The translations under genes and the position numbers were made by a program. The notes beneath the pieces were generated by a model, which was not told the origin of the DNA, did no database searches, and was given only the letters and a program-made list of their open reading frames with translations. Positions 12,819 to 60,400 of a stretch of DNA of 64,000 nt are shown piece by piece; the first letter of the stretch is position 1; every line of letters begins with the position of its first letter. This stretch comes from Tetraselmis striata (lineage: Eukaryota > Chlorophyta > Chlorodendrophyceae > Chlorodendrales > Chlorodendraceae), in the NCBI GenBank assembly GCA_006384855.1, contig VCJN01000486.1, positions 97,815 to 161,814 of the forward strand. The letters are read 5' to 3'.

Positions 12819-15045
12819 ATGCCGATGGTAGCGGAAATGGGCGGTGGGCTCGTGCATGCTGCGGCGGCGCCGGTGGTGGGCACGGCACCGCGGGGGCGCG
12901 TCCGCGCTGCCGGACGGCGACTGAGGTGAGCGCTCCCTCACGAGAAATATCCACTGGAATTATGTTCCGGTAGGCCACATCCCCAGTGAGCATTGAGTTC
13001 GCTCCGCTCCTCACCTCCCACCGCCCATGCAATCCAATCGCACAGCCCTGCCGTATGTGAGAGTATCGCCCTGACATGGCGCCCCGCCTGGCCAATGATG
13101 AGACAAGTCCCACGAACCAAACCGTGTGTCTATATTTGTTTTAATTTCTGAGGCCAGCCCCCCCAGTCACCACCCAGCCCCCCATGCCACAGTTAGCCCC
13201 CCCCCCCCCCCTTCACGCGCAATGGCCTGCTGACACCTCCCCCCCCCCCCGCCCCTTCCCATATTCCCAAACCCCTGCAATGCCGCAGGTGTCGGGCATC
13301 CGGGCGCCGCGACCTGAGCTGGGAATCTGAACGCGCCCCCGCGCCGCTGGCGCCCCCCACCCGCAGCTTCCCACCTCCGCCGCCGCCGCCACCGCCGCCT
13401 GGCCCCGACGAGGTGCCCCTGCCCCCCCCCCCCCCCCCCCTCCGAACCTCACGTCTTCATTCAGTGCTCACCCGCGCGCCCCTCCCGCGCCCCGGCTGGC
13501 GCAGTCGCTGATGGACGGCGGTGGCCGGCGGCGGATGCTGCTGGGCGGCCTTGCGGGCGCGGCTGCGATTGGCCTGTCGAGAGTCATCTTCGAGAAAGGC
13601 ACGCCCGTTCAGCCTCCCCCTGCTCCCCCCCCCCCCCCTCCCCCCTACCTCTCAGCGGCGTGCATGTTGGCTCTGCCCATGTTGCGGTGAGGTACAGAAC
13701 CCGTAGGGCTGAGCTGCTGGAAGGAAGGGGGGCAAGGGGGCGCCGATGATGAGACAAGTCCCACGAATCACTCCGTGTGTGTCTTTGTTTTAATTTCTGA
13801 GGCCGACCCGCGCTCTCGTGCAGCCGGTAGCCCTCATCAGCCCACAGGGGGGGGAGGACCAGCCTTTCCTGAACCTGTCCCCCCTTCTCCCTCCCCCCCT
13901 CTATCTTTCTTCCACAGGCTTCGCGTTCCCCGGCATGGCGAACGGCAAGCTGAGGGTGGACCCAACTACCGGCCTCGAGTGCGCCCCACGCCTCGCCCCC
14001 CCCCCCCCCCCCCGGGGGAAGCACCGCCATTCTCCAACTCCTCACAACTCGCCCTCCCCCCCCCCTACTGGTGGCAGGTACCTCGTCACCAAGGCCGGCA
14101 ACAAGCTCGTGGTCTCCACGGACGCGGAGGGCCACGTGTGGATGGTGGACCAGGCGGGCAACCTGTACTTTGACCCCGGCAACGAGAGTGTCGGCGTCTT
14201 TATCGTGCGGCCCGAGCCCCCCCCCTTCCCTGACCACAACCCATGCTGGTGCAAGCAGACGCATCGTGCACCCATGCGCTGTTGCCCCACCACATTACAG
14301 TGCTTTCTTCTCAGGAGGTGTGTAGTGCCTGCCTGGGCGCCTTGCGTACTGATGCAACGATGACACCCTTTGAGACACCCATTGCCCCCTCTCCCCCTTT
14401 CAGCTGACCACCACAACGCCTGCCTGAGAAGGCAAAGCCTCTCGTCTTACTGGATGTTCTCGCCCCCCTTCCCCGGCATGGCGGCCAGGTGGCGCGCGAC
14501 GGCTGGATAGAGAACATCTGGGAGGAGAGCGGGCGCACGTACCGCAAGGCCATCGGCAACATCGACGACATGTACGCCGTGCCGACCAAGGAGTTTGGCA
14601 CGGTGGTGGGCCTCCCGCCGAGGAAGGACGACGCCCTGGCGCAGCCCATCGACCCCGACATGTTCACCCAGGACACCGGCTTGCCCAAGGTGCGCCTTCT
14701 TCTGGTGGTGGGGGGGGTGTTCACCCTAGTGCCCTAACATCAAACCCTTAAATAGGGTTCGCCATAACAATAGGTTCCGCCTTATGTGTGATCAACCTAA
14801 CCCCTGTCGCCTTTAGATTAGGGTTTTCACCTGAAACCCTAACCAACCCCTAAATGAAATAAAGATGAAAGCAGTCTCTTAATTCCCGGCCTCCTGGGCT
14901 CTATTCCTCCCGCTGAGACCTGAGCCCGACCCTGCGCAAACTGCTGGCTGGCACGCAGGGCACGTACCCGCGCGTGCTGGAGGACCGGGTGGTTGACCCG
15001 GCCTGGGTGGAGAAGCTGGCCCGCAAGTACGGGGAGATCAAGTGA
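12819..15045 (+). CDS. Putative thylakoid-lumen or thylakoid-associated protein with bipartite plastid leader
   Basis: Seven exons fit in phase: 12819-12925, 13289-13412, 13505-13598, 13918-13978, 14078-14204, 14489-14689 and 14959-15045, giving about 266 residues. The first about 77 residues are Arg/Ala/Pro-rich with a proline run, like an algal chloroplast transit peptide. Next comes GGGRRRMLLGGLAGAAAIGL, a twin-arginine plus hydrophobic core as in Tat-dependent thylakoid leaders. The mature part starts around FEKGFAFPG and contains GHVWMVDQAGNLYFDPGN and DGWIENIWEESGRTYRK. I do not recognise the family. Oddities: intron 3 (13599-13917) appears to start with GC (AG|GCACGC); introns 2 and 4 carry poly-C directly after the donor; introns 1 and 3 share a 59-bp sequence. 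The last acceptor is uncertain, because coding-like sequence (TLRKLLAGTQ) precedes 14959. Exons 1-2 are less certain than exons 3-6. Confidence 0.65.
13097..13155 (+). repeat. Intron-shared 59-bp repeat, copy 1
   Basis: It starts GATGAGACAAGTCCCACGAA and ends GTTTTAATTTCTGAGGCC. It lies in intron 1 of the plastid protein gene. The second copy is at 13748-13804 in intron 3 of the same gene, same orientation, with few differences. Confidence 0.8.
13748..13804 (+). repeat. Intron-shared 59-bp repeat, copy 2
   Basis: Second copy of the 13097-13155 sequence, here inside the intron that apparently begins with GC. Both copies share the same first 20 bases and the same end, GTTTTAATTTCTGAGGCC. Confidence 0.8.
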
Positions 15046-15230
15046 GGCCGGCGGCATGACGACGCCGGCGAGCAAGCCGGCCAAGCCGCCCTGGGTACCT
15101 AGGGCTCAACAACCCCAAACCCTACCCCCCCCCCCCCCCCATAAGAACCACCACCAAAATTTTGTCACCCACCAGCTGCTGTGGGCCTAGCCGAGGTGCA
15201 GCCTCCCCTGCCTCGCGCCATTCTTTCCAA

Positions 15231-15235
15231 TGTAA
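15231..15235 (+). terminator. TGTAA polyadenylation signal of the plastid protein gene
   Basis: TGTAA lies 186 nt after the TGA at 15043-15045. A poly-C tract (15125-15140) lies inside the inferred 3' UTR. Confidence 0.5.
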
Positions 15236-18083
15236 ATTATGCAGAGTACTGAAGCCTCGCGGCAGCTCCGCACAATACGCACTCCGCGCCAGCATGACGT
15301 GAAGCACAATCAGGATACCCACTCGCGTGGTCACCCTTTGCACGGACCCCGCTGCCCCCCCCTCTCTCCGCTCCCAAAAGGCTTCCATCCCACGCTGCCA
15401 TGATCCCGGTACATGTACATACATGCGTGCACACTCTCCCGCTCAGACAAGCTCAAAACATTCCACCGCCCGGAACAGGGGGTGAACCCAGATGGCAGGC
15501 ATGGCAGCACCCCCCCCCCCCCCCCCCTGACGAGGCGCTGATGTGGTCCAGCGCCGGGGTCGAGACATAAGGAGGACAGGGGAGGCGGCGGCGGAGCACG
15601 GGCTCCACGGGTCGCGATCACACGACGCCCCCCTGTGCGTTGACGATGGCGCTGGGCGCCGCGACGGGCCATAGTACACGTCCAAACAATCTCGTGCCTG
15701 CCTGTTGAGAGCGCCGCGGTTGGCGGGGACCCCAGCCAGCCTTCTACTAACCACTGCAGGCTTCCACTGATCCTTGTAGCCACGCGTAGGGTTTGCGGCA
15801 TATCAATGGCTTTTGATCCCCTGCCAAGAGTCAGTTGGCCAGTCAATATTACACACGTCCTACCACGAAACTAATCGGGGGCTACGGGACATGAAAATAA
15901 GCACGGATTGTCGGGGAAATGGATTTTCTGCCCGATGTGATGGGGCTCCGCTATCCATAGAAACAATGCGGTTTCATCAAGGTTGCGTCTGCTCTTCATC
16001 GGTGGCTTGCCTTTGCAGTTGTCGTGATTCGGCGCTTGCGATCCAGGCTATGCGAACGGTCACTAGTGACTGCCATGTGGTGTCAATGGCAAACATCGTG
16101 AGGGCCCTCTGAACCGCGCGGCCATAGGTCATGCTGAGGCTGTCCCTATGGCGCTTTAGAGGCACCCGTGACGACAACATGCGGCGCGGTAGATGCTACT
16201 CACAGTCCATCTAGCTTGCATGACCAAGCAAGGCTATACATGTAGACATTTAGACATACAGCTGGTAGTCAACGGAGATGACTCCCAACTATGGCCCTCG
16301 CAGTCTTGCACGGCCTCTCTGTATAGATGTGGCATCTCCAGGTGTCCTTGCGTGTGACCCGTGCCTGTGTGCCGTAACCCGCACGCATTGAGCATGGAAA
16401 AGGCGCAGGCGGGAGTACAGAGCCTGAGTCAGCGACCAGCAGCACTCGCGGCCCTACGTTAAGAGGAAGGATTCGGCTCGCTTGGCACGGGCCTAGCGCA
16501 GAGATGTCGCAGCATGCGAACAAGTCCCAATTGCCAAGAGAGGGTAGGGAAATCACATCTATCATGACAAGTATCAGAATACACCATGAATGCCACACGG
16601 ATTCTCCGACTCGATGCTGTAAAACATTTAATTTGGGCGATCCGCGAACCCAAATCATGATGATACGATATGCTTCAAAGCGCTACTTCAAATTCACCCG
16701 CCAGATGTCGTCTTAAATGAGTCTGAAATGAGGCCGCACGCTGGTGCGGGTACCAAATCAGACTGATTCCTTTCACTCGTACGAGTGCACGGCAAGTATG
16801 TGATATATGAATGCTGATGCGGTGGGACACCGGAAGTGGCGTATCTGTATTCTGTGATGGTACGTATTTTGATGGGCTGTTTAGTCGCCGCCGGGCGGGG
16901 ATACATGTTCGATAGCGCCTATGAAGTAACTTGACAGTTGAATCAGCGATGCGTCGATTTTTCAGAGAATTTTAAAGGAACGGGTTCTAAATCACTGGCC
17001 TACAGTTCCATGAATTGCATTGCCAGCGCTTTGAAGTATCGGTACCAGAGTGTCTTTAGACCATTACCAGCAGCGAGTAGCGAGTACCAGTACTCGTAGC
17101 CTCTCAACCGTGAGATCGTAATCGGACGGCTGTGTAATTAAGGACCGTGGGTGGGTGGGAGGGTGGGCGGGTGGGTGGGTGGATTATGGTACTTAATAGT
17201 ATATGCGAGTAGATAAGTGGGCTGCACGGAAAGTACTGAGAAAGGACAAAGCCATCACCAAGTAGAACTTCGCGCCAATCGGTATTGGTATCCGAGGCGA
17301 ATACACATCACATTCCCACCGCTAGCATGTAAACATAGTGCCATCAACCGGGAAAGCACAGTGTTCGCACACCGCGAGGCGCGCAGCTTCACTTCTATAT
17401 TCACGTGGGTTCATATCTTGCTCCCTGCCGGGGGGGGGGTACGCTCCGTGCAAGCACATCCAACACCGCAGTGACTCCATCTCCCGGAAAGCCAACTCCC
17501 AGTAGAACCCTAGCTCGTATTTCCTAGCTTTCTGCCCACTTCATCATCCGTTCCTCTCCATACAATGGGCCGCGCCTGGCCCTTGACTGCGCGATGGCAT
17601 TCCGCGCATTACCCCATGGTCCGCAGAGTTCGGCGGTCTGAGGCGCTGCGCCGTCACCGCAGCAAGGCATGGGCCGCGGTGTCGCTCGCGCAGGGGGCCG
17701 TCACGTCCGCCGTACAGAGCGCCGTCAACCACACGCCGTGGGCCACCATCCTGCTGGTGGTGGACACGCACGCCGCGGCGGGGGGGGGGGGGGGGGGGGG
17801 GGGCGAGGTGTCCACCAAGGTCGAACCTCGTGGGAGTACGGGATCCCAGGCTCGCGCGCTTGCCCTCAACACGCGCCAGCCGGGCTAGCTCAAGTACTTC
17901 CACCAGGAAGCACACCGATTGGTGCAATGACATTTCTTGTGACTGCGACATAAGTAAACCATATTACCTTTTGCATAAAGAAATTGCCAATCACAATTAC
18001 CGGATGTGTCATGCAAAACACTAAAAGGAGCGAATAAGGATACATCTTTTGCAGGTGGTCTTGCGGCAAGTGAGCTTATCGCA
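15236..18083. other. Intergenic region without a supported gene
   Basis: About 2.8 kb. Poly-C occurs at about 15511-15527 and poly-G at 17781-17803. Short open frames, such as 15813-16112 (+), 16269-16658 (-) and 17565-17888 (+), have no family signature. The last contains a short hydrophobic, protein-like piece (NHTPWATILLVVDTH) but no supporting splice partners, so I leave it out. 17148-17182 is a G-triplet array listed separately. Confidence 0.4.
17148..17182 (+). repeat. G-triplet array (potential G-quadruplex)
   Basis: The stretch is (GGGT)n-like, with eight runs of two or three G separated by single T, A or C bases. It meets the usual pattern for a stable intramolecular G-quadruplex on the + strand. 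It lies in intergenic DNA about 0.9 kb beyond the end of the apyrase gene. Confidence 0.7.
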
Positions 18084-18088
18084 TTACA
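18084..18088 (-). terminator. TGTAA polyadenylation signal of the apyrase gene
   Basis: On the minus strand TGTAA lies about 91 nt downstream of the stop at 18181-18179, as expected for a green-algal poly(A) signal. Confidence 0.55.
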
Positions 18089-18178
18089 AGAGGGGCATGC
18101 TAGTCACAGGCGCGCAACGTGCCACTGGCTTGGGTGGCCGGGCGGGGGTGAAGGGAGGGTGGGGGGGGCGAAAGCGGC

Positions 18179-21100
18179 TCAGAGCTCGCCGAACCTGCGG
18201 TCTGGCTTGTCGCAGTATGGCCAGCCCGGGATCCTCTTCTGGTCTTGGGTGACAATGTAGGACAGCATGGCGCCGCGCGTGTAGGCGAACTTGTTGCTGT
18301 CGATGCGGTCGGAGAAGACGATGCTGGGGGAGCCCATGGTCTGCAGGAAGCGCAGCATGAGCACGCCGCGGAAGCACGGCCCGGAGTCGGTCTCAAAGTC
18401 GTCGCGGATGCCGATGTCGTGCGCCTCCTCGGGGGGCATCGTGCACACCTGCAGGGCCGTCATGGGGGTGGGTGGGGCGGTCAGTGAGCGACCGGGTCGG
18501 CCGCCAGTACCACAGAGGATTGCTTTCTCTGAGCAGGATTGGAGATCGTGGGGTTGATATCAAACCCTACATCAAGCCCTGTCCGTTTTATTATACAAAA
18601 CGGTTGTGATCTGCCAAAGCGGCAGGCGGGGGGGGGGGGGGGGGGGGGGGGGGGATCATGAGCAACACTTAAATAGCAAACCCAAGCGTGGTTCCGGAGG
18701 GTGGGGGGTAGTTCCCTGGCTTGGGGAGGGGGCTGTGCCTGGTGGACGAGCGACTCAATGTCAGCGTAGCTGTCGGGCGCCCAGGCGCCGTGCTTCTTGG
18801 CGAGCCCGAGCGGGCGCGCGAGCTCCAGCATCTTGCGGAAGCCCATGAACACGATCGTGCCCGTCGCCGGCACGTACACGCCCGCCGCGGCGCACGGCTT
18901 GAGCAGGCACTCCTCGCGCAGGTTGAGCACGTAGTCGTCCACAAACCACTGGCACATGTAAAAGTCGCCGCTGCCGACTGCCGGGATCGGCGAGGGACAG
19001 CGGTCAGCTCGACAGCCCACAGCAACACGCGGCGGAGCTAAGCATGTCACTCGTTGAAAGGTCACGAATGCAGATTGGGTGACCTGTTTTGAGCTGCGAA
19101 TTCTCAGCAATGCTTAACGTGTCAATTCAATGCCGTCTCCTGGCTTTCAGTGGGAATTTACTACCCCACTAGTACTTCCATAATACATACATGATACGGC
19201 AAATACGCATCGACCGCACTTTCCTATTGGAATGGTCATGTCGTGTGGGGGGGGGGGGGGGGGGCGTACCGTATGTGTAGTTCTCAAAGCGGTCGGGCAT
19301 CACCTCGTACTCCTCCACCTGCACCTGCCCCGACAGCAGGCAGGGGTCGCTGAAGGTGTGGCCGCCCGAAAAGCGCTCCGTTGGCAGCCCCACACGCGCC
19401 GCCTTGGTGATGCCAAACTGCGGGCGGAGGCAGCGAGCGGCCGGCTGCGGTTAGACGCAGCGCGGGATGGGCAGGGGGGGAATACTCCAATGGGCCGCTG
19501 CCAATAACAGCAGGTGCAATTATCATGGTGGCTTGTGCACCGCCATACTGGTCAGGAGGGCAGGTTTGGGGTGGGTGTTGGGGGGGGGGGGGGGGGGGGG
19601 AGCCTGCCTGCATGCGCCTGCGCGCCTCGCGCTGCCCTAGGCCGTTCCAGGAGTGGGAGTAGATGATGGTGGACGCGTAGGTAGAACCTGTGGAGTTGGT
19701 GATGTGGGTGAACTGGAGGGGCGAGACGGGGTAGACGTTGCCGAGGATGGACGACTCCTGGGGCGCAAAGGACACCTGCGCGCGCGCGAGCTTCATTAGC
19801 CGCTGCGGCACTGCACCCCCCAACCCAGCCCTCCGTGTACCGCCGCCCTGCAGCACGCACCTGCAGACTGGCGCCGCCGGTGTCAATCCACCCGAAGGCG
19901 CCGGGGTCCCTCTGCTTCTTTGCGATCTGCCGCTCGATGCGGTCGTTCTCGGGGTCGTCCTCGCCCTCGTCATCGTCGTCATCGTCCTGCCCCTGTGGAG
20001 CAGCAGCGGGCGCTCAGGCGGGGGGCACCTTTGCGAGCTACCAGGGCAGGTGGTGCAAATGCAAGCGCACATACCCGTAACATTTATATTGGGCCTACGG
20101 TTCACAATAGAATGAACAGTTTCGCAACATGTTGGGTAATCGAATGACCTGATATGAACGAGGTATACATGTTCACCAATGCATAGCGAACCCAAACCTT
20201 GGTCAGGGCGGGCGGGGCAGAGGGGCAGCGTGGCGCACCACCAGCCTGCCCATGAGAAAGTTGAGGTCAAGGAAGCCAAAGCCGCCCTCATCGTCTCCGG
20301 AGATCTGCACCAAGAGGGCGAGACGTTCGTCAGGGAGGTGGTGCTAGATGCCTCCGGGGCATGCGGGTGAGCTTGACGATATTCCGTGGGACAGGAGTGG
20401 GAAGGGGGCGCGGGGAGGGGGGGGGGGGGGGGGGGGGAGACGCGCACTGTCTGTGCCCAGAACTGTCCATCAGTGAAGGGGGGGCGAGTGCCGTAGAGGA
20501 AGGGGTGGTTGTCGGGGTTGGCCAGCCAGATGTTGACGACGCGGAGGATGAGGGCGCGGTCTTTCTCGGGGATGAGGCGCATGCCTAGTGGCGGATGGAA
20601 AGGGACGAGGGTGAGATGAGCGCTGCAGGATGCGCGGTACGGCAGCCGGGCATGCAAGAGGGGGCGGGTAGCCACCTGCAGTGGCGGTGAGGAAGACGGG
20701 CGTGTTGGGCCACTTCTCCTTTGGGATGACCTCCTTCGCCTCCTCCAGCGCCTGCAGCAGGCTCTCCCCTGCCCCGTGCGGGTCGCCCCCCTGGCCCAAG
20801 CACGGAAGGCGAGGGGGCGTCAAGCCGGTAGCCAGCTGCCCACATGACAGACGACCCCCCAAACCGCTGCCCCGCCGCCCTTGGCCTCGAGACAGGAGGA
20901 GGCGGGGTAGGGAGTACCTCGGAGATGGCGAAGCTGGAGAGGGCGGGCATGCGAGAGAACTTCGAAACCAGCTCCAGCTTGGGGATTTCTTTGTAGCAGG
21001 GGTCCCAGGACCTGCGCGCCAGTCCAGCAAATACTTGGGTTATGAAATCATCTCACGTCCGGCCCGGTCGACATTTTGGAGCGCACAACCGGGAAGGCAG

Positions 21101-21384
21101 CCAGCCAGCTCGAGTATGCGAGCAGGTTTCCGTGAGAATAGGCATCGCAGTTGGACGCCGCACCAGACACCGCCCTTGGTGCTGCCAGAGCCGGCGTCCA
21201 GCAGGATGCCATACGCCAGGTCCTTGTCCTTCTTGTGCTTCTTCTTCTTGTCCTCGCCGGCGCGAAGCAGGTCGGGCTTCAGTTCCCTCGACGCCGCGGC
21301 TGACACGTGGAGGAGGCTCGCAGCGCAGAGCAGCGCGAGCGCTGCCGCCGACAGGCGGCGCGCGCCGATCCTGGGAGCGCACAC
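18179..21384 (-). CDS. GDA1/CD39-family apyrase (nucleoside di/triphosphatase)
   Basis: Ten exons on the minus strand join in phase: 21384-21164, 21011-20918, 20790-20676, 20584-20448, 20304-20239, 19992-19861, 19775-19608, 19417-19270, 18977-18739 and 18448-18179, about 525 residues. The family hydrolyses NTPs/NDPs, usually outside the cell or in ER/Golgi lumen. The apyrase conserved regions appear in order: YGILLDAGSGSTK; FLTATAGMRLIP; DEGGFGFLDLNFLMG; GWIDTGGASLQVSF; and VGSGDFYMCQWF. A signal-peptide-like core (RLSAAALALLCAASLLHVSA) starts the readable protein. It is not preceded by an in-frame ATG, so the start codon is probably in a further upstream exon. No C-terminal membrane anchor is visible, which suggests a soluble lumenal or secreted enzyme. 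Oddities: an acidic then basic insert (QDDDDDDEGEDDPEN, QIAKKQRD) between regions 3 and 4, and two introns that appear to begin with GC (after 19608 and after 18739). Family identity is strong. Confidence 0.85.
18628..18654 (-). repeat. Poly-C tract (sense strand) in an apyrase intron
   Basis: An uninterrupted G run of about 27 on the + strand, that is poly-C on the apyrase sense strand, inside the intron 18738-18449. Shorter runs in the same gene sit immediately after the 5' splice sites at 19269, 19607 and 20447. Confidence 0.85.
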
Positions 21385-22579
21385 AGAAGGGCGGGGCGGG
21401 GGCGGGGGGGAAGGCTCAGGGGCATTTCTTCGCCCGCGCGTTGGACGACTTGATCAGCGACCGTTTGTGTAACAATCGAAAGCCAGCGCCCCGGCAGCAT
21501 CAAACCATAGCGACAAGCCGAGACGAACTTGTCGACTCGAGGCAGGCTGGTTCGGAGGTGCTATACTGCGGGCATGCGCAGGCAGATCCGCTGGAGCGTC
21601 TATTGGCGTGGCGATGGCTGGCGCGACGGGTCGCCAGGGTCGGCTGGACTCGTTTGTGCCGGCGCTCTCTCACGGTAGCAAACCGTGCTGTGATCGTCGC
21701 ACGCCAAACGCGGAAACAATCGCATGCCGGGAACCCTGATCGCGCGCTCGGTATGGGGAGGCTGCTCCCCCCCCCCCCCCTCCCCCCCCCCCCCCCCCCC
21801 CCCCCCCGCCGGGAGGCGTTGCGGATGGATGCAAAACGTATTCCGCTTGAGGCTGCCCGCACAATAACTAGACGGGAGGGCGCTGTGATGGGCCAGTTGG
21901 GTCGCCAGCAGCGGGCGGGGCGGATCGTAACACTGATGCAACAGCGACAGGCGGGTAACAAGCGCGCGCTCAATGGGAGCAAGCCAGACTGCGCGACGCA
22001 CCGAAGCGCCATCATGTCGCTACCTGGCGCTAGCAGGTGCTGATGGAGTCGCGTCGCTGGATGAGGGGCGGGGGGGGGGGGGGGAGGGGGGGGGGGGGGG
22101 GGGGGCGAGGTGCCATTCGCTGGGGACGGCGCGTATGGATAAACCTAGACCTGTACCCGCTACCTACCGGTACAGATACTGTGTACTCGCTAGAGTGTGT
22201 CCATGGGTTTGGTTACACACTTGCACTTTCTGATATTGTCCTTTTTTGGTGATTTCCTGATATCGCATTCTGCTGCTAGCTCATGTAATTCTATGCCACA
22301 CACTTGGGGTTTCACGGGGTTTCAATCGGCAACCGAGTCCGGGTTTGCCAAAAAGATCGGAGTCTGTGTTACATGGAAAGCGCCGTTTTGTGGCTAGAAG
22401 GTTCAGCGAAAGCGGCCCGTGGGGGGGGGGGGGGGGGGCGGGGGGGGGGGGGGGCGGGGGGCGGGGGAGGGGGGGGCAGTCTGAGGAGAAGCCCGCAGGG
22501 CGGAGGCGGAAACGGGAGGGCGCTGCCGACGGCAGCGAGCTGGAAGATAGCAGACGAGCTGGTGGTGGCTGTCCTTGCT
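21385..22579. other. Intergenic spacer with long G/C homopolymers
   Basis: Upstream of the apyrase gene. It should contain that gene's true first exon and promoter; an ATG at about 21500 on the minus strand is a candidate but lacks a clear donor site. Near-pure homopolymers lie at 21766-21807 (C), 22065-22105 (G) and 22421-22476 (G). A retroelement 3'-tail-like repeat lies at 22230-22290. No other gene is seen. Confidence 0.45.
22230..22290 (+). repeat. Retroelement 3'-tail repeat T, copy 1
   Basis: TTTTGGTGATTTCCTGATAT followed by CTGCTGCTAGCTCATGTAAT. The same block occurs at 45245-45303, and the second half at 31528-31557. Each ends at a TGTAA, the green-algal poly(A) signal, so it looks like the 3' end of a transcribed retroelement. 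Confidence 0.65.
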
Positions 22580-22808
22580 AGAATCTGCCCGATACCCTAG
22601 CACCGGCCCGTACCCTAGCACCGGCCGGGCACATACATGTCCCGTGCGCCTTTGCGCGCGCGTGCCTGTCTCCCGGCCCGCCGGGCGCTCTGCTTTCACT
22701 CTCTCTTCCTGTCCACAGTCCCCGCAGCTCGAGCCCGGCTCGCTGCTCCCACTGTACGATGCTCCGAGCACTTCCACTCACCATCACCTCCGCGGTTGAG
22801 CCGTTTAG
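22580..22808 (+). repeat. Left direct terminal repeat
   Basis: Contains an internal 18-bp tandem (ATACCCTAGCACCGGCC repeated), a GCGCGCGCGTGCC block and a CTTTCACTCTCTCTTCC pyrimidine tract. All three recur in the right copy. Confidence 0.75.
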
Positions 22809-24431: not shown

Positions 24432-24655
24432 GGAATCTGCCCGATACCCTAGCACCGGCCCATACCCTAGCACCGGCCGGGCACATGTCCCGCGCGCCTT
24501 TGCGCGCGCGTGCCTGTCTCCCGGCCCGCCGGGTGCTCTGCTTTCACTCTCTCTTCCAGTCCACAATCCCCGCAGCTCGAGCCCGGCTCGCTGCTCCCAA
24601 TGTAAGATGCTCCGAGAACTTCCACTCACCATCACCTCCGCGGTTGAGCCGTTTA
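24432..24655 (+). repeat. Right direct terminal repeat
   Basis: Second copy of 22580-22808. It differs by a 4-bp gap after GGCACAT and scattered substitutions. Confidence 0.75.
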
Positions 24656-45575: not shown

Positions 45576-45576
45576 C

Positions 45577-46688: not shown

Positions 46689-46728
<40 letters not shown>

Positions 46729-49700
46729 ATTATCCTTCCTCATGAAGTAATGAAGCTGTGTCACCCCCGGACGGGCTTTCTAGGCCAGTAACTGCTCATT
46801 GCGCTTGGCTCAATTGTTCCTGCCTCTGACACTTTCCTCCCGATATGGCCTCTTCCATGGTGTCCCCCCCCCCCCTCCCCTTGTAAAACCAGACACTGGA
46901 GGAAGGGCATCCAAAGCCGCAAACGTTCACAGTGACAATCCAGGTACAGTAGCATGCTGCAGCGGGCCAGCGCAAACACTTTCGAACCAGCATGAATGTC
47001 ATGACACTGGCCACGGTGCTTCACATATGGCCAGCTTCGGGCACGTCTGATTCTGGCTTTGCATGCCCATCCATCCCCTCACCGCGCCCAATGGTCCTCT
47101 TCGCAGAACTTGAGGTCACGCACAATCGCCGTGCGCTATGCGCCGCCTCGCTCCAGTGCCTGGAAGCTTCTGGAGACGCAGCCGGTAGTGCACCTGGCCA
47201 GTGGACTCGAGCACACCTTTCAGGTGAGGAGGCAGCATTTGACGCGCACAGCTGGAGTGCTTACCGTCTGGCGGCCCTGGGCGGCAGGTCGGTCTGGTGT
47301 GGGGGCGAGGGAGAGGGCCATGTGATGCTACAGGCGGGTGTTGATGGCATGTGCGCTCCCCTCCTGTACAGGTGGCATTTCAGGAGCCTAAAAAGAGCGA
47401 ACACGAAGAGCAAAACGAGGACAAGCTGGACTACCATGACCGGCTCAAAGTCATGACCTCGGACTGCACAGTTGACCTTGAGCTGCACGCCATGGCGCCC
47501 ACCGCAAAGCTGGAGGTCCGCCACCATGCCACATCCCCCTCCAGCCTCAGAGCCTTCTTTAGCCCTCAAGGGTACCAGGAGGTCTTGGCCTCACTAACGC
47601 ATCTCGACACCCCCCAGGTGGAAGGCAATCTGGACTTTGGCATTGTGACACAGGAAAGCTCAGCCAAGCGCACGTTGCGCGTACGAAATAATGGCCACAA
47701 GGAGGCCCAGTTTGAGCTGGAGTGCGATGTGACGGGCATTGAGACCAAGGTGAGCTGCCTCATGCTGCAATAGCCGGCAGTCCCCTCTTCCGACAGGTAG
47801 CAAAGGATGCGAAGCGATGCGATGCGCCGCAACCCCAAATCCCGAATGGGCCCTGCACTCACGGACAGCACGGCGGCCCCCGCAGATCACGCCCGAGAGT
47901 GGCACCCTGGCTCCCGGAGGGAGCACGGAGGTGGAGCTTTCCTGCGTGTTTAATGACCTTGGCTCCTTCAGCGGTGACCTCTTTCTCCGCGAGGGCAACT
48001 CCTCGGAGGACAACGCCTCTAAAGTGCGCATCGGCTGCACCGTGATCCAGCAGACCTTCGAGGTGCGTTACCGCCTTCACCTGCAGCTGCTCATGGATTG
48101 ACCGCTGAACCTTGAGAGGGGCAGGGGGCCTCACTGCGAGTCATGAGATCATGTTCAGATCATGTTCAGCGCGGACTCAGCTGGGGGTGACGCGGTGGTG
48201 CAGGTCCTGGAGGCGGGCGGAGCCCACATGAAGCAGCTGAAGTTTGACCCGGTCAGCTTTGAGGACGAGGCGGAGTACGAGATTGAGGTGCTTAACAATG
48301 GGCCGGCACCTGTGCAATGGCGCGGGCATGTCCTCACCAAGAGCGACCATCGCGTGAAGCTGCAGTACGAGGAGGACCAGGGCCATCAGGAGGTGCGCTT
48401 GCCTCCGCCGCGAATCGCCCATCAGTAATCAGCAATCAGGCGCGGCAGCATTAATTGTGCAACTATTGACTGCTAATTATTGACTGCTTGTGCGTTGCGC
48501 TTGGCATGGTAGGATGGGGTGGACGTGGGATCCTACCTCATGGCAGCCCGGCTGCGCAAGTCGACGAGCACCAACCTCCCCAAGGCGTTCTCCATGTCTC
48601 CCGAGTCTGGCCTGCTGCCCGCCTTCGGCACGCAGCGGGTGAAAATGCGCTTCCATCCGCACGCGACGGTGCCCCAGAATGGCTTCACCGCCACCTCGCA
48701 GCCCGCATCCTCGCTGTCTGAGATGTTTGAGTACATCGCGTCCTTTGACCTGGACATTGGCAAGAGGTGCGCCCGCCCTTCGCCCCCCCCCCCCCCCCCC
48801 CCTTAACAGCGTACGGGTGCCGACGGCGTAATACGAACACCGCAAATAAGAACCTGCTCTGCGTGTCAGAGGTCAAATATAGGCAAAACTATAGCGGAAC
48901 TACAGCGAATGCTCTGATGCGGGTAGGTTGCTATCAAGCCTAATTTGAGGCTTGATAGTAAGGGTTCTTTTTTATAGGTGGGTCGGCACCCGTGGTCGAT
49001 CCCCTCCTCCCCCACGCCCTGGCGCTGGCGCATGAAACTTGCACCTCCTGGGTGTTAACCCTCTGTTAAGGCTGCATTGGAATGAACTGTGAGGCACCCT
49101 GTCCACTGGGCTGCAATGCCTTGATTAAAGACCATGCAAGAGACGGAGCCATAGCACATTATACGGTTTGCATACTATACTTGGGGTCACGCATCCGTCG
49201 CTGTGTCTTTTTCCTTCTCAGCGCACTGAGCGCCCCGTTGTCCATGCACTGCCATAGGGCGGAGCTGCCGGTGACGGGACGCGGCGTCAAGGCGCAGGTG
49301 CAGGTGTTGCCGCGCGCAGACATCGACTTTGGTGACCTGATGACCTACGAGTGGGCGGACTACCCGCTAAACGTGGCCAGCATGGCGAAAGACGTCCCGC
49401 TGAACGTGTCCATCAGCCGCTCGTCCTACTTCAAGGTGGAGCCCAGCAGCGGGCTGGTCCCGCCGGGCTCGGCCCTGCCGGTGGTGGCGACATATAGGCC
49501 AAAGGTGATGGGGAATCATTCGGAGACCCTTACCGTCACGGTCGCTGCGCTCTCGGGCAAGGTGCTTGCCACCATTCCGCTGTATGTGCGTGGTACATGC
49601 AGCAAAATTGCGCCCAAGCCGGCGCTGGTGGGCGGCCCAGACAAGCTGCCTGAGGACTTCAAGCGCGAGCACAACTTCATCGACCCTGAGACCGCCAACT

Positions 49701-52700
49701 TGAGCAGACTTGAGCGCCAAGCCGACCTTAAGTACCGCCGCCCAGCGGTGTGGGAGAAGGGCATGGAGGTCACCAACGACGACCCCACCATGAGCCTCAC
49801 GCGCAGCCAGAAGCAGCAGACGGTCGCGCACAAGGACCGGTACACCGCTCTCATCCGGGCACCGCGCACGGCGCGCGCCGCAAGACACCTGACGCGGCCT
49901 GAGGGAGGCGAAGGCGATGTTAACCTCGGCCTGCAGACGACTGTGCGCATCAAGGGCTCGCAGCCAACGGCGGAACCGGTATGTCTCGACATCCAACTGC
50001 CGGTGCCAAAGCATCTATAAGATCCCTTATTATTAAAAGCCTCAAACTGGTTCCTGCTTTACATGCAGCCGGTGATAAGAACACCCGCTATAGTTCCGCT
50101 ATAGTTGGGCGTATTTATTTGACCTCTGGCAGGCCGGGGGGTTCTTATGCGCAGTGTTCCTATTACCTTGCCGGCACCCGTACTTCCACCCCCACTCCCA
50201 CCCCCACTCAGCTGCCAGCCATGTCGTCCGGCTGTGCCCTCAACAGTACCGCAACAGCGCATGCGCCCGGCGACGGGGTACTGTCAGGCATCGATGTGCT
50301 GTGACGGATGAGCCCACACCGCCTTGTGATCCCGCCCGCGCTGCCGCTGAATGTGACTGGCCTCGTGCCCGCGCGCAGCTGGCGCCGATGCTGTACACGC
50401 CGCAGACGCGCATGAAGAGCGGCAGCGGGCGGCCGCGCAACCGGCTGCCCATCAGCGCCTCGGACGTCAGCCTGCTGCAGAGCTACCCCCCGCTGCCGGC
50501 CACGGCGGATCAGGTCGACGAGTGCGGGCGCGAGCTGACGGAGGGAGACATTGCATCGTTGGTTGTGGGCCTGGACGTCATCGACTTTGGCAAGATCAGC
50601 GCCTGCTCCAACAACACCATCAACCTCGCCGTCACAAACCACCTGCGCCAGCACATTCTGGTGCGCTCCAGTGCCCTCCACGGCAATGAGCACACTTCAA
50701 ATCAGAGCCTGCCTCACCGGTCAGAGGTCAAATAAATACGAAAGCATAGTGGAATTATGGAGGATGTTCTTCTCATTGGTTGCCCGATCAGAGGGTAATG
50801 GTAGGTGTTGTATAATATTAATAATATGGTGCTTATAAGAATAAGAGTTATAGGTGCGTGGGCAACCGTACGCCCGCCCCCCCTCTTCATTCCCGCAGCA
50901 ATCCCCGATCTGTTTCCAGAGTGCTCGGCGGGCATTGCCCCCTAAAGCCTTGCCGTCTCGCTATCCGTTCCACCGTGCAGTGCCGGTCGCTGCCGACTGA
51001 TGAATGTCATGTGATGTCCCGGGCAGTTCATGGTGGCGGCCAAGTCGGTGAACGAGCTTGACAAGACAGAGGCGACGTCCGTCTGCCTGCCGCCCGGCAA
51101 GACTGCGGCGCTGCCGCTGGTGCTTAATGTGCCCAACGTGCAAAACTACAAGCAGACGGTGGACTACGTCATCAACGGCATGCACATCTACTCGCTCACG
51201 GTGGTGGCGGACGTGGTGCCGGTGTCGCTGGAGCCCAGCAAGGAGCACCTCAACTTCCAGTTTGACCCTGCAGTGTGGTCCGGCTACGTGGAGCAGACGG
51301 TGCTGTTTGACAACCCCAACACCTTCGACGCCCACTTTGAGTGCCGCCTCGGCAACGAGGTCTTCAGCGTGCAGCCGCCCTCGGGGATGGTGCGCGGCCG
51401 CAGCAGCAGCGAGGTCGTGGTGCGCTGGTCGCCCGACAACGACAAGCCAGGCACGGTAGTGGACGTTCTGGAGATCGTGTGCGTGGGCGGCGTGCCGCCG
51501 CACAAGAAGGTCCACCTGCGCGGGGAGCTGCCGGAGGGGAAGCTGTCTTTTGGGGAGAAGGCGCTCGACTTTGGACCCATGGGGCTCGGCACCGCCTCCA
51601 CGCGCACCGTCACGCTGCGCAACGCGGCCCCGCACGACTGCATCTTCCAGGTTGTGAGGGGTGATGAGGCCGACGGCATGACGGTCTCCCCGACCCACGG
51701 CCAGGTGCTGGGCTCCGACACGCTGGAGGTGGAGGTGTCGCTGCGCGGGCGGGCGGAGGGTGTGTTCTCCAGCGCCATCAGCGTCGACGTCCGCGGCGGC
51801 AAGAGCATTAAGCTGCCCGTGAAGGGGCTCATCAGCGTGCCGGCCATCGACGTCGCAGAGGACGAGTTCGACTTCGGGTCTGCGTACCTGGGAGCCACTG
51901 TCAAGCGGCCGCTCACGCTGACCAACTCGGCCGCCGTGAGCGGCGACCTGCGGATCGACCTGGCAGCCATGCCGGAGTTCACGATGGACCTTCCCCGTGC
52001 AGCATGGGTTGGCAAGCACTACGACAGCTGCCCGCTGGTGGAGGAGGTGCCGCCGGCCACAAAAGCGGTCGGCTTCCCACAGCAGGTGCGGTCCCCTCTC
52101 TCACTGAAAGATTGGTATGGTGTGGTTTGAGCGCCCAGCCTGGAGGCCTGGGGGTTGCTAAAGGGCATCACCCGACCCCAACTAGGTGCCTGGCTGTGGC
52201 TCTTACCGAAAGAGCATACTATTACTTATATGATATTACTTATATGATATTATTACTTATACGATTACTTATATGATATTATTACTTATAATGATATTAC
52301 TTATATGATATATACTATGTATGTATGTATGCATGTATTAATATAAAATGCATGATTTATTGTATTTGCAGAATACTATAACTGTATGTATATATGTACA
52401 TGTGTACATACGTTGTGCAGTATACTGTAGTGCAATATGCTGTATTACTTAGGTGTGAGATACGCGGTATTGCATGCACTCCAAACCTTTCACAACCGAC
52501 AACTTTGAGCCTTGTACTGTCCTCTTTCCCCCGGCTGGCTGGCTGCCTGGCTGACGACGCCCCCCTTCCCGCTGCTCCGCTGGTGGCGCAGAGCGGCCAC
52601 ACATACACCATCACCGTCGCGCCCAAACACACGCTCAAGCTGTCCATGGTCTTCCGGCCGACCAGCGTCCAGGAGCACGCCTTTGAGCTGCCGCTCGTCA

Positions 52701-54468
52701 TGAGCGGCGCGGGCGTGGTGTCGGAGCTGCGGCGCGCAGTGGTGGCGGACGGGAAGCTACCGACGGTGGGCATTGCACCGGAGTGCAGCCTGGACTTTGG
52801 CTCGCAGATCGTCCAGAGAGCAGGCGTGAAGAAGGTACCCACCAGCCTGCCGCTGCTCCTCACCTCCAACGTCAACGAGCCGGTGGGCTGGGAGTTCCGC
52901 GCCCCCAGCACCGACGGACAGCCCAACGGAAAGGGCGTCTTTCGGGTGGTGCCTGGCAAGGGGCTGCTCCAGCCCGGGGTGGCGCAGCCCATCAATGTGG
53001 AGTTCCTGCCCCGCGAGAGCAAGTTGTACGAGGTGCGACACCGCCTGATCCACTGGCCCACCGGCCGGATGCGGAAGGAAGAAGCGAGATGGCCTGTTTG
53101 TAGCATTGGATCATGTGGAGGCAGGATGCGCGGTGCTGTATTTATGATGTTGGTTGCCTGCGGCTAAGAAGTGGCGATGTCTGATATGTGTGCGCTCCTG
53201 CAGGGCAAGATCCCGCTTCATATCAATGGCGCCGACGAACCGTATTTGCACCTCGAGGTCGCCGGCATTGGAACGCAGCCACGGCTGACGTTTGACACCC
53301 CTGAGGTGCGTGAGAGTTCCCAGCCCCAGCAGAGCCGCCGGTCCCTTGTAGCCACATCGGGGGAGGTTGGTGGCCGAGCGCCGTCCAGGCCGCTCGCTGA
53401 TGGCACCCTCTGGCGTGGCGCAGGTGGTGCTGCCCTCCGTGCCGCTGGGCCAGCGGAGCGAGGCGGTATTTTATGTGGTAAACGGCGGTTACGACAACCT
53501 GGAGCTCAAGTTCCGGCTGCCACCTGACGGACGCCGCATCCCGCTGGAGGTGGAGCTGCCGGAGGGCGACCTCATCGGTATCGCGCGCGACCGGCTGCCG
53601 GTTCTTGTCAGCTTCGAGTCCGACCGGCCGCTCAGCTTCACCGCACGGCTCGACTTCCTGGATGCCGAGGGCAAGCGTTATTCCATCCTGGTGCGTGCGC
53701 TGCGGCCGACGCGTGCCGTGGGTAGCGGCCTTTAATTGTGTTCTTGCGAGTGTTGCTAGTGTTGGCATTCACTACATATAGGACAGCACCAGTCCGTTCA
53801 TTGCCTAGTCACATCAACTCGTCGCTTGCTGGCGACGACACGCGGCAGCGGTGGATCATTGTCGTTGTCGTCGTCTAGCCATATCGACTCGGTGCTAAAG
53901 CATCGACGGCGTTCACCTGCGGCAGTGTATCTGCGAGGACTCGACACTCTCTATCGACGACACGAGGCGGATCGTCGTCATTTTCTGGCTACGTCGACTC
54001 GTTACTCCGATACATCGCCACATCAAACGAATCGCTCTCGCCTATATCAGCTAGCCACGTATCTCCTTGCTGCTCTCGTATATCTCCGTTGTCGTCGTTT
54101 CCCAGCTAGGTCAACTGGTCACTGTAGTCCTACATCCCTAGGCTTGTCGTCGTCATTGAGTTGTGTCTGCGTCAATCCATCACTGTCTATCGACGACGCT
54201 TGGCCGGTTATCGTTGCCTAGCCACGTTAACTCGTAGATATTCACTATCAGCAACTTTCAGCTAAGTGGTGATTCTCGACATAATCTAGACTTGATTATG
54301 TCGTGTAGATTATGTCGAGAATCATAGCTCTCGTATTATAACCCTGGGCTTGTTGTCCTCTTTACGCTCATAGCCACGCCTAGTCGTCCCTAGGTCGTCA
54401 CTGTCTATCGACGACACTTGGCGGGTCGGCGTCGTGTAGAGCTACGTCGACTCGTTGATGCTTAGCAC

Positions 54469-54499
<31 letters not shown>

Positions 54500-57400
54500 C
54501 TTGTGACTGTCGGATTCGCGACTGATTTGCGATTATGTCCGTTGTGGCCTGGCCCAGGTGAGCGGCGCGACGGACAACAGCGTGCTGACGACCGGGCAGT
54601 TCTTGGCCGCCAACGTGGGCGGCCTGAGCTGGGCGCCGGAGGACGATCCCGCGGGGCTGGGGCCGCGCCTGGAGGAGGCGAGCTACAGCCTGCCGCCCGC
54701 CAACGGCGACGCCGTGGGCCCGCTGCGCCTGCCACCCGGGCTCCTCTCCTTCCTGCGCGCCGCGACCAACCTGACGGCGGCCAACCTGGCGCCGGAGGAG
54801 CTGCCGGGCGCGATGGCGGCGGGGCGCGGCAAGGGGCTGGTGGAGATGGTGGAGGGGCTGAGCGGCAAGCCCTTCCCCGGTAAGGCCGGAAAGCTGAGCG
54901 CCTCGCGCAAGGAGGCTGCCGACCAGGTGAGGCCACTGGGCATGGCGCGCCAAGGCGTTGCCTTAGCTTTGAACTGCAGTGACCTCCTCATCTGTTTGTC
55001 GGCCGTGGTCGGCCTCGTCCAGAGTTAAGTATGTTGGAGTCGTAAACTGTCATTCCGCGAGTGAGCAGTTTTCCGTCGTCATGTCATCGTCGTGGTCGAA
55101 TACAATTACGCGACAATAGCAGCCCCCCAGCAGTAGTAGTAGGGAATCGTTCGTATTTATCGTAGCGCACTACCTCCTGTACAGGTACTGGTACTGGTAG
55201 CAGCCGCGCGGCGCACGATGATTTTATTTTTCGCGCACTTTATACTCTTTTCCATTAAAATCGCCGGAATTGTCGGACCTGCACCTTGCAATCATCATGA
55301 GGGCATTACTCAGTGTTAGGGTTGGAAAGCCATATGTAGGTGCATCTAATCTACGGTATACATACTAAACCATATTGTGCGCAAAGTGCGCACAGTTGCT
55401 CCGTCCTTAGGCAGCCAACAACTACTGGAAGGGATGATAGGGTGTCACGAACCTCAGCCCTAAAAGGCCAGGCCACTAGTTGGCGCTGCTGTGATATTGC
55501 GAGGCTGACGTCCCTGCTTGGGAGGCAGAGTGTGTTCTGGAAGTGTGTCCTGGGCGCATCTGACGGCATGCTGGATGGCCCCCTATCCGGAGCCAGGTGG
55601 CCGCCATGTTTGACCGCCTGCTGAGCCACCTGAAGAGCCACGGCGCGCTGCTGAACGCCGTCAAGCCGCATTTCCTGCTGCCGCCGGCGGACCTGCGCCT
55701 GTGGCTGCTCAACCGCGAGGCGGAGGCGGAGGCGCCCAGCGGCGCGGAGGCGGACCTCGGCGGCGAGCAGGCCGCGGCGCTGGCGTACGCGCGGCAGCTG
55801 CTGGACGACCGGGACGCGTTTGCGGAGCTGCAAGCCCGCGCCTACCACGCTATCTGCCAGCAGGTGCGAAATCCCCCTCCCTCCCCTTTTCCTGCACCCC
55901 TTGTAAGGAAGCGTCTGCCGCATTGAGGCTTGCGGTATCAAATGTCAAGAGTTGTTATTCACTCAAAATCAAACATTGTATATAAACATCTATCAAATCA
56001 TATGTGACATGTTTTGTTGGGGGGGGGGGGGGGGGGGGGACAACAGTGGAGCGGCTGATCTTCTGTTTGATTGAGTTTGGTGGGGCTCTAGAGACAGGTG
56101 CACTAGTCTATCCTCATTCACTTGATGCCGCCAGTCATTCAGGCCAAAATCCAGCACCGCATTGACTAAATCACAATAATTTAATTCAGCTGCGTATATA
56201 AGTACCAACGCAGCCGACAACTGGTGCGCTGACCCTATACAACGGTCCGGTCGATGCATCATGTTTGTATGGTAGATCATGTGCGCTTTTACCCCTCGTA
56301 CCCCGCCAATGCCCCTCTGCCCCCTAGGGCTTACCCACCGCCCGGCAGGCGACCCCCGTGGCGGGTGCGTGCTTGGCTGACTTCCCGCACTCCCTGCCTG
56401 CAGGTGGTGAAGGTGTACGTGGTGTCGCGCATCACGCCCAGCAGCCTCAAGGCGCTGCCCAAACCCGCAGGGGCGGACGCGCTCTGGCCGCCCTCTGACC
56501 CCAAGGCCTACGCCACCTCCAACGTGTACTCCCCCGGCGAGGCGGTGCTCCTGGCGTGGGCGGGTGCACACCTGGCCGCGCGCTTCCCGGAGCACGCCGT
56601 CCGCCTTCGCGCCTTCGACGAGGGCATGCTGCGCTCCGGTCTGCCGCTGCTGGCGCTGATGCTGAACCACTGGCCGCCGCTGGAGGGGCAGCTCAGCCCT
56701 GGCGAGGCCTCCAGGCTGAAGAAGGGGCCCGCGGCGGAGGAGGCCGCGCGGCCGGCCAACGCCGCCATTGCCGTGCGGCTGTGGGCAGCGCTGCAGCTGC
56801 CCTTCCCACTGAGCACGGCGCAGCTGCTGGAGGCCAGCCCTGCGGACGGGCTCATGCTGCTGGCCTACGCCTACCAGGTGCGGCACGGAGCAGGCACCCG
56901 CTGCCGCGCTCACCTTCCACAACCCCCCAGGCGGTGGCCACTGGAGATCGGGTATCACAGTGCCGGACCTCCGGGCGCATTCCGTTACCAACGCACACCC
57001 CGCCGGGCCTCGGTCTGTTGCTGGTGGAGAGGAAATGGGGGGCAGCTGTGAGCTTTGGCGGCTTTGCAGCGCTGTCACCGCACTTGCGCTCTGGGTTTGA
57101 GGTGTATGAACCCCATATGCCCCCCCCCCCCCCCGCCCGCGCGCGCTGAGAGGAAACTACGTTTATCTTGAAATATATCAGAATATACAGCAAATATCAC
57201 ACAGATCTTCCGAGTCGAAGTTGCAAAACAAATCATTAGTTTTCGGACTCGCAAATCCAAGCAAGTGTTGCGGGTATATGTATCATAAGTGTCTGTACAG
57301 CGCCGAGCACAATAGAATCCATTCTTGTCTGGGGGCCGCACCGGTTGTCGTTTAGAATGTTGCAGAGGAGAGGGGTATCTGTCATGCCGCTGTTGATACG

Positions 57401-60400
57401 GCAGCAGCTGGGCCGGCGTGGCCAACGCAGCCGCACTCTTTGTTCTCGAAAAGCAATCCAGCTATGGTTTCGGAGCATACCGCTGGAAGGGGGACTTGCG
57501 TTTGGAGGCGCGGCAGGAGGGCGACTGCTGACCGCCTGCTGACAAATATGCCCTGATGACACGGAGCGCTGATATCCTCTGCTGGGAGGCGCGGTCGCTG
57601 ACACCTCCCGCCCCTCCTCCCTCCGGCCCCGCGGGCACACGCACCCAACAGGCGCTGCCGCAGTTGGTCCCGCTGACGTCCATCATCTTTGAGGGCAAGC
57701 TGAACGAGGCGCAGAGCAAGTCCATTGAGCTGTCTAACCCCAGCCGGCGCATCATCGCGTACAACGTGCGCCTGGAGGGCAGCCCCGAGTTCAGCGTGAC
57801 GGAGGCCATCGTGAAGCTGGAGCCGCGCAGCACCCTGCAGTTCCCGGTGCAGGTCACGCCGGTGTCCAGCCACCGCAGCGAGGCCAAGCTGGTGCTGTCC
57901 AGCCGTGCGGAGGGCGGCTCGGGCGCGCCGGCCGCCACGCTGGTGTTTGACCTCGTGTCGCTCCCGCGCGCCCGCGCACCGCTTGAGCGCGTCACCACCA
58001 CCGCCAGGCGGTACGAGCTCAAGATTCTGCAGCTCAAGGTGGCCAACCCCTTCCCCTCGGACACGGACCTCACGGTGCAGCTCCTGCCGGAGCTTGCGGA
58101 GCCGCTGCCCACGCCCCGGCCGCCCAGCAACGAAAAGGGGCGCCGCGGCGGCGGCAAGCCCAAGGCCAAGCCCACCAAGGAGCAGGCCGCAAAAGACAAG
58201 GCCGCCAAGGAGGAGGCCGCCGTGTTCAAGGTGCCCAGCTCCCCCCCCCCCCCCCCCAGTCCCTTGAAGATGATCCACACTCCAAACCCCCGCTGACTGT
58301 CCCTTCTCAGGCCTATCGGACCTTTGCGCTTGGCGGGATACTTTGTAGAATATTCGATAGCGCTAGATATATTATTCATGCATTGATTTAAAACAGACAA
58401 CTCGTGGTAATAATCTTTATTATAGGTAAGCCGTTGTTATAAGCGTGATTACTTACGGAGAGGGACGACGCACCTGTACTCGGAGCCCTTTTCACAAGCC
58501 TCAAGTAGGGCTCGCATGCAACCTATGTAAGAACATTCGCTATAATTCCAGTGAAATTTCGTCTTCTTTTGACCTCTCATTGGCAGGAAGGACAGGTTAG
58601 TATCTGCAGTGTTCCTGTTATTAGTGTGTCGTCACCCAGATGATACCTGCGACCCTGATGACCGCCCACCCTTGTTGCCGCCTTGCAACTCCTGCAGAAG
58701 TTCCCTGATCCCTTTGGCTGCGAGCGCACCCGGATGAAGCTCAAGTTTGGGCAGACAGACACGCTGAAGATCGCGTACATGCCCTGGACGGAGGGCACCT
58801 CACACTGCACCGTGCTGCTCACCAGCCAGGCGCACGGGCAGTTCTGTTACGAGATCACGGGGGAGGCAACGCCGGCGGACACGCTCATGAAGGTGGACTT
58901 CCAGGTGGACATCGACGGGCCGCAGGTGAGCTCCCTCCCCCGGCTTCCTTTACCAGCTAGAGTGCATCCGGTTTCTCCTCATGTAGAGTGCCTTCATTCT
59001 GTGGGTCGGTACACTGTTCGGATATTCACAACATTTTGTGGAAACGTGTGTCAATGACACATAATAGCAATGACATGGGTTTGGAGAATGACATGCGATT
59101 TCGCTTCCGAGCATTGTATGTTTGGAGTACATAATTACAGTATTTATTGGGTCACTATCAACCGGGCCAATCTGAGGCTAATCCAAACACACATACTTGT
59201 CACCAACATGACAGCACATGAAAATCAGCGCAGAGCACCAACGTTATTGACCACTTGCTTTTATTTCCCCCTCCCCCCTGCTTCCTTTACCACCTGGAGG
59301 GCATTGTGCTTTCTCCTCATGTAGAGCCTTCATTTTGTGGGTTGGTATACCATTCGCACATTCGCACTTTTTGTGGAAATGCGTGTATGACATATCATAT
59401 AGCAGTTCCATGGTTTCGGAGTTTTACATGCAATTTCCAATCCGATCGTAGTTCTGGAGCACATAGATGTAATATTTATTGGTTCACTATTTACATAGGC
59501 AACCTGAAGCTAACCCCAACACACATACTTGTCACCAACATTACAGCACATGAAATCAGCGCAGAGCACTAACAATGTTGACTACTTCTTATTATCGCCC
59601 CCTCTCCCTGCTCCCTTTACCACCTGGAGGGCATCGTGCTTTCTCCTCATGTAGAGCCTTCATTTGTGGGTTGGTATACCATTCGGACATTCGCACTTTT
59701 TGTGGAAATATATGTACGACACATCATATAGCAGGTACATGGTTTCGGAGCTTTACATGCGATTTCATATCCGAGCGTAGTTCTGGAGCACATAGATGTA
59801 GTATTATTGGTTCACTACTAACATGGGCAATCCGAAACGAATCCAAACCTAGAAACTTGTCACCAACATGGCAACAGATGAACAATTATTGGCCACCTGA
59901 CATGATTGGCCCCCTCCTCTGCTTTTAGATCCGCGACCTGCCTCTGCCCTACCTGAACAAGCAGCTAGAGGAAGCCAAGCGGACGTTCATGGAGCGCCAC
60001 CCGTCGGCGAAGAAGAAGGACCAGACATCGCTGATCCCGCCGGGCTTTCAGCCGCTGACGCCCAGCGGTGCGCCAGGCCAGGGCGGCCCGCCCGCAGTGC
60101 ACTACACGGTCGCGTGCAACAACCCCAACGTGGACGTGGTCACCATGGATGGCCACGGCCTGGACCTGCACGACAACCCGGACTTGGTGTGGAAGGACAT
60201 CGCGCAGCGCACCGGGCGCGCAGCCACGCCACTGGCCGGCCTGGGTGATGAGACGCCCTCGGGGCGGGACCCTGGGCCCAATCGGCTGCGCCTCACGCTC
60301 GCGCCGCGCGGCAGCGGCAGCTACCCTGTGCGCCTCACGCTGACCAGCGCGTACGACACGCGCAGTGTACTCGTAACCTTCATCGCACAGGTGCGCCCAA

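Follow-up and report, generated by a model that had tools for sequence, protein, structure and literature searches.

We report a C-rich zone at the start of introns, together with poly-C tracts associated with it, in a 64,000-nucleotide (nt) window of the Tetraselmis striata contig VCJN01000486.1, the window being the whole stretch of DNA that was analysed and the scope of all of the results below. In 23 introns from three genes that are supported by protein homology, the stretch between +7 and about +40, counted from the 5′ splice site, has an excess of C on the sense strand, and five of the 23 carry a C run of 17–21 nt beginning at +6 to +26, one of them behind a GC donor. No G run of at least 8 nt occurs in the first 45 nt of any of the 23. 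The zone, its position and strand specificity, the tracts and the excess of tracts near donors are direct observations on this window.

Supported introns and gene models

The 23 introns comprise 14 in the FAP47 gene (approximately 47157–63507, + strand), two in the DGAT2 gene (ending at approximately 9033, + strand, with a DAGAT match) and seven in the NTPDase gene (approximately 18179–22012, − strand), the spliced protein of which matches GDA1_CD39 over positions 4–412 of the 423 in the profile (E = 5e-40). For FAP47 and DGAT2 the support consists of protein segments aligned on either side of the intron, and for NTPDase it consists of a spliced protein that matches the family nearly end to end, with three junctions inspected singly. 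A further 17 introns, among them one with a weak donor at 18747, are predicted only and were tallied separately. The supported set retains the weak donor at 49979 and leaves out a possible 55-nt intron at 61871, and the acceptors are approximate for several introns (48767, 49979, 52086 and 54927). At 61839–62021 the FAP47 frame shifts without a good intron, the 55-nt intron at 61871 being the only one predicted there; a tiny intron, a frameshift and a sequence error are the candidate causes of this frame change.

Exons of FAP47 and DGAT2 served to train the gene finder, which used a strand-symmetric background model and a donor matrix whose training donors (FAP47 and DGAT2) include 48767 and 58231. 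Since this matrix stops at +6, the gene finder is unable to create a C bias past that position. An earlier permissive gene finder was dropped because of its many tiny exons. The gene finder used here merges gene A with DGAT2 and extends gene C, a predicted gene of unknown identity (approximately 12837–15041, + strand), to 18934; both models were trimmed by hand. When G/C runs of at least 6 nt were scored as neutral, the donors at 2061, 13413, 13979, 14205, 48767, 58231, 20447, 19625 and 19269 were still called.

The C-rich zone after the 5′ splice site

At +7 to +30 the 23 supported introns have a C fraction of 0.505 and a G fraction of 0.214, compared with 0.253 and 0.241, respectively, in the interiors of supported introns; C exceeds G in 19 of them and falls below it in two (Wilcoxon p = 0.0003). 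In the 18 supported introns that have no C run the values are 0.440 for C and 0.241 for G, with C above G in 14 and below it in two (p = 0.003), and since the zone is present without runs too, the poly-C tracts are the tail of a broader feature, a general C-rich zone at the 5′ end. The gain in C offsets A and T, with G unchanged (13 introns), so that avoidance of G alone does not account for it; T stands at 0.145 at +7 to +30 and at 0.274 in the interiors. The excess extends from +7 to about +40 and fades within error by +31 to +60. With run-bearing introns included, the C fraction of the zone is 0.48 in FAP47 (14 introns), 0.59 in NTPDase (seven introns) and 0.40 in DGAT2 (two introns).

The exon ends upstream of the donors are balanced (C 0.31, G 0.30), and decoy donor-like sites, 20 exonic and 23 antisense to exons, have roughly equal C and G and no run of 8 nt. 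The 3′ ends of the introns are likewise enriched in C.

Poly-C runs at individual intron starts

In the following, a slash marks the exon–intron boundary. In FAP47, the intron start GAG/GTGCGC is followed by C20 from +17 (48767–48802, +) and lies between collinear FAP47 segments, of which the upstream one is weak by itself, and the start AAG/GTGCCC is followed by C17 from +11 (58231–58257, +), again with FAP47 segments on both sides; both donors are kept when the runs are masked. In the NTPDase gene, the starts ACA/GTGCGC with C21 from +11 (20417–20447, −) and ACG/GTACGC with C18 from +6 (19247–19269, −) are supported by the masked control and by alignments that cross the junction, to NTPDase4 in the first case and to NTPDase in the second. 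The third NTPDase intron start has C21 from +26 (19580–19625, −) and is supported by the match of the spliced protein to GDA1_CD39 profile positions 4–412. Its donor must be GC, as there is no GT between 19673 and 19560; the gene finder takes 19625 (GAG/GCGCGC), and 19607, which shares the same phase, is a possible alternative. The NTPDase gene contains a GC–AG intron with its donor at 19625 or 19607 (−).

In gene C, the predicted starts GAG/GTGCCC with C19 from +10 (13413–13440, +) and CGA/GTGCGC with C18 from +18 (13979–14013, +) are calls of the gene finder alone, which makes them with the runs masked as well; a start with C9 from +13 (14205–14225, +) likewise has only the gene finder behind it. 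A metallophosphoesterase-like gene (approximately 658–4021, +, with a Metallophos match just below the cut-off) has a start GAG/GTGCGA with C11 from +21 (2061–2091, +), again from the gene finder only. The FAP47 intron start at 55864–55893 (+) is C-rich in its sequence without a run of 8 nt, and FAP47 segments bracket the intron. All of the C runs cited in the first-pass annotation of this DNA are present in the sequence. Of the seven introns that it described as having poly-C directly after the donor, those at 48767, 58231, 19269, 20447 and 19607/19625 are supported by homology and those at 13413 and 13979 by prediction only; of its shorter C-rich versions, 55864 is bracketed by homology, and 2061 and 14205 are predictions.

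Five of the six sense-C runs of at least 8 nt in supported introns begin within the first 45 nt, where 1.1 would be expected if each run were placed randomly within its own intron (p = 0.0005). A sense C15 in a FAP47 intron lies far from the donor, at +243 (57120–57134, +). Neither of the two sense-G runs of at least 8 nt begins in the first 45 nt; FAP47 introns provide counter-examples to the C orientation in a G29 at +781 (54471–54499, +) and a G21 at +156 (56019–56039, +), both on the sense strand. In the predicted-only introns four of nine sense-C runs fall in the first 45 nt, which is not significant (2.4 expected, p = 0.14), and one intron has a G8 there. For the combined set the count is nine of 15 (p = 0.0005); by intron, a C run occurs in the first 45 nt in nine of 40 and a G run in one of 40. 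A pairing of the C tract with a G tract of its own intron was considered and is unsupported: in the nine introns with C runs, the G runs reach at most 2–6 nt.

A test that is free of gene models gave a modest donor association: a donor-like score of at least 4 at 5–40 nt upstream was found for 6/32 runs on the C strand and 3/32 on the G strand, with 7.2% expected, whereas at a loose score of 2 the order was reversed (10/32 on the C strand versus 15/32 on the G strand, with 25% expected).

Long G/C tracts as a class

Runs of C or G of at least 10 nt number 32 in the window, whereas 20 simulations under an order-1 Markov model gave 0.2 on average; those of at least 15 nt number 24, compared with 0.05 expected. 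With lengths of 10–29 nt they form a separate length class, the longest A run being 7 nt and the longest T run 6 nt. Many of the tracts of at least 10 nt lie away from donors, and 21 of the 32 crowd into 12699–22454, between a tenth and a sixth of the window. In the bodies of five genes, 14 of 16 such runs read as C on the sense strand, with the orientation tracking the gene strand and being opposite in gene C (+) and NTPDase (−); within 1.5 kb of the genes 11 of 13 read as sense-C, and three runs lie further off. The exceptions are the G29 and the G21 in FAP47 introns, as well as C14/C26 upstream of the NTPDase gene. As the tracts are clustered, these counts of orientation are not independent.

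The view that the run is on the sense strand whichever strand the gene uses is accordingly borne out in 14 of the 16 gene-body runs and contradicted by those at 54471 and 56019. The broader proposal that the runs are linked to the transcript is upheld within this window, both by this tracking of the gene strand and by the lack of a C excess at exonic or antisense decoys.

Proposed explanation and alternatives

Our preferred explanation, which we hold tentatively and at slightly below an even chance, is that a C-preferring RNA-binding protein that aids U1 would land on the splice-linked C-rich zone at approximately +7 to +40, with the tracts as the slippage-grown extreme of that zone. The zone would mirror the C enrichment that precedes the 3′ splice site; the protein landing on it would help U1 to define the 5′ splice site; an existing C-rich stretch would be lengthened into poly-C by replication slippage; and long tracts would be tolerated provided that the RNA carries them as C, not as G. 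What we infer is the bound protein, its assistance to U1 and slippage as the cause of tract length. Binding of a poly(C) protein near U1 is plausible by analogy with the poly(C)-binding proteins that act at C-rich tracts (PMC4797308). The observations fit two layers: a splicing-linked C zone at the 5′ end of the intron and a tract-forming tendency, with survival best where the RNA reads C.

Several points weigh against this explanation. The evidence comes from one window, and the supported introns belong to three genes. Long tracts are found at a distance from donors and outside genes as well, and the tracts in the flanks have the same orientation bias (11/13), so that tract survival may be unrelated to splicing. 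After 199 further donor-like sites, a set that contains true predicted donors, C and G are similar (0.31 and 0.29), and C8 and G8 runs are equal in number (5 versus 5). Compensation of weak donors by C zones is suggestive overall, with weaker donors tending to have more C (Spearman −0.50, p = 0.016, 23 introns), but is not established; as the correlation is not significant within FAP47 (−0.30, p = 0.30), we do not claim it.

Almost as probable as the splicing-linked explanation is a neutral one, in which the tracts have no splicing role. Slippage would make many G/C tracts, selection would remove those that give G runs in RNA or in the coding strand, and the donor side would simply be tolerant and compositionally C-rich. 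This agrees with the existence of tracts of 10–29 nt as a separate class made only of G or C (32 versus 0.2 expected) and with the sense-C bias in flanks within 1.5 kb (11/13), as well as with the intronic G/C tracts of Caenorhabditis elegans, which according to PMC2211496 are biased in orientation (84 versus 47, the strand wording being read by us as a sense-C majority) and not in location. However, in introns without runs G is not depleted at +7 to +30 and C is raised, and the location of the tracts here is biased toward donors.

It is improbable that the tracts act through their template strand, the G-rich sequence of which might form a G-quadruplex (G4) or related structure inside the intron, slow RNA polymerase and aid co-transcriptional splicing. 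The template strand does carry G (that is, sense-C) in 14 of the 16 gene-body tracts, and the tracts lie just after donors, so that the R-loop/G4 role suggested in the first-pass annotation is possible; it leaves unexplained the C zone of introns without long runs, where a G4 is unlikely, and two long tracts in FAP47 introns are sense-G.

Slightly less probable again is an artefact, either of assembly or of donors having been picked because a homopolymer cannot code. Two of the seven originally cited introns rest on prediction, and in a bacterial genome collection 14 of the 24 matches to a donor plus C16 pattern lie no more than 150 bases from the end of a stretch. Searches with donor plus C-run patterns returned two viral stretches and the 24 bacterial ones, and the mirrored G pattern returned two viral stretches; the viral matches were not taken as relatives, the run being near the end of the stretch in three of the four. 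The runs in the present window, however, are internal and follow the gene strand, the donors are unchanged when the runs are masked, and a gene-prediction artefact is ruled out for five introns by protein homology together with the masked-run control.

That the tracts or C zones are marks of intron creation, as had also been proposed, here by an introner-like mechanism, is very improbable, as the approximately 110-nt repeat common to four supported FAP47 introns, two of them with poly-C, is internal, occurs in both orientations, off the splice sites and also in introns without poly-C, and is the only repeat that blastn self-comparison with runs masked found in these introns, with no shared intron ends.

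Returning to the splicing-linked explanation, a wider version of it may be put forward, although it is doubtful: that this algal group marks the 5′ end of the intron by a cytosine code, consisting of a C-rich enhancer and a C-binding protein that helps U1, so that C would define both intron ends in place of the U of animals and fungi, and with poly-C tracts as hypermutable versions that could tune splicing. How splice sites are defined in GC-rich algae is poorly understood, and both gene finders and the design of transgenes for such algae rely on it; a C-rich signal following the donor would, if true, be a further element in the splicing code of a large lineage. Should the tracts be tolerated slippage products only, they would still be a natural example of tracts surviving asymmetrically by strand, and with a positional component that is reported as absent in C. 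elegans.

Other features of the window

The window has a GC content of 60%, and its best protein matches are to the flagellar protein FAP47 of entry 7n6g, which is presumably from Chlamydomonas. From the GC content and the FAP47 matches we take the window to be green-algal nuclear DNA. A search with a FAP47 exon matched nothing in viral contigs and found no relative in genome contigs, and no viral-contig relative was found for part of the predicted gene A protein. The searched part of the predicted gene C protein (167 amino acids) had no Pfam or PDB match. Neither a tRNA nor an Rfam family at gathering score was found in the window.

The approximately 110-nt repeat is dispersed, with a mean column identity of 68%, and is possibly a short mobile element; its copies lie in both orientations at 128–231 (+), 48811–48918 (−), 50075–50183 (+), 50692–50783 (−) and 58530–58637 (+), four of the five being inside FAP47 introns. 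A FAP47 intron also contains a tandem array at 58933–59882 (329-nt unit, 2.9 copies). Elsewhere, a 228-nt repeat is present at 22581–22808 and 24433–24656 with 95% identity, a degenerate tandem array is present at 41462–41964 and palindromic repeats are present at 45584–45694. A frame at 31830–35210 (+) resembles the reverse transcriptase of long interspersed nuclear elements (LINEs; RVT_1, E = 5e-5, below the cut-off); in the LINE-like region 31830–36359 (+) this long frame is followed by a second frame without a match.

Comparison with known systems

The comparisons below refer to the parts of the cited papers that were available. Among the papers listed in searches of an open-access library, none was, judged by title, on poly-C tracts after green-algal donors, and the feature is not described in the available parts of PMC4378016, PMC4815162, PMC4938644, PMC9860276 and PMC11686069. 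The donor-side combination of a C-rich zone with poly-C tracts appears to be new.

Like the introner elements of Micromonas (PMC4815162; surveyed in PMC9860276), the present introns belong to green algae, a group rich in introners, but the introners have high identity including at their ends, whereas the intron ends here are dissimilar. As in Caenorhabditis (PMC2211496), long G/C homopolymers are over-represented and their intronic orientation is biased; unlike in Caenorhabditis, where the location in introns is unbiased, there is a bias towards the donor side (p = 0.0005). The tracts bound by mammalian alphaCP/PCBP (PMC4797308) are similarly C-rich intronic RNA near splice sites, but they have been studied mainly at 3′ splice sites, in a subset of cassette exons, where binding is demonstrated; for the present zone binding is proposed. 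For CDK2 exon 5, an enhanced exon, C-rich motifs are mentioned on the downstream side as well (PMC4797308).

The first-pass annotation had regarded a pyrimidine tract as normally belonging to the 3′ end of an intron. This is not universal: in Fusarium, 83% of predicted tracts are reported to lie between the 5′ splice site and the branch site (PMC5677156). The fungal 5′-located tract lies 8–40 nt from the 5′ splice site and is defined by at least three T in six nucleotides and no A (PMC5677156, citing Kupfer et al. 2004). The C excess at +7 to about +40 resembles it in position, but the fungal tract needs T, whereas T is lower here (0.145 compared with 0.274, by base composition and not by a six-nucleotide scan).

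A further parallel is with Chlamydomonas reinhardtii, the introns of which are reported to have a C-enriched 3′ end that replaces the polypyrimidine tract (PMC2830987). As in C. reinhardtii, there is enrichment in C instead of a U-rich polypyrimidine tract, including at the 3′ ends of the introns; unlike in that account, which concerns the 3′ end, the 5′ end of the intron is also C-rich. By this analogy, we tentatively read the C zone described here as the equivalent, at the 5′ end of the intron, of the C enrichment at the 3′ end in Chlamydomonas, on which slippage may have grown poly-C.

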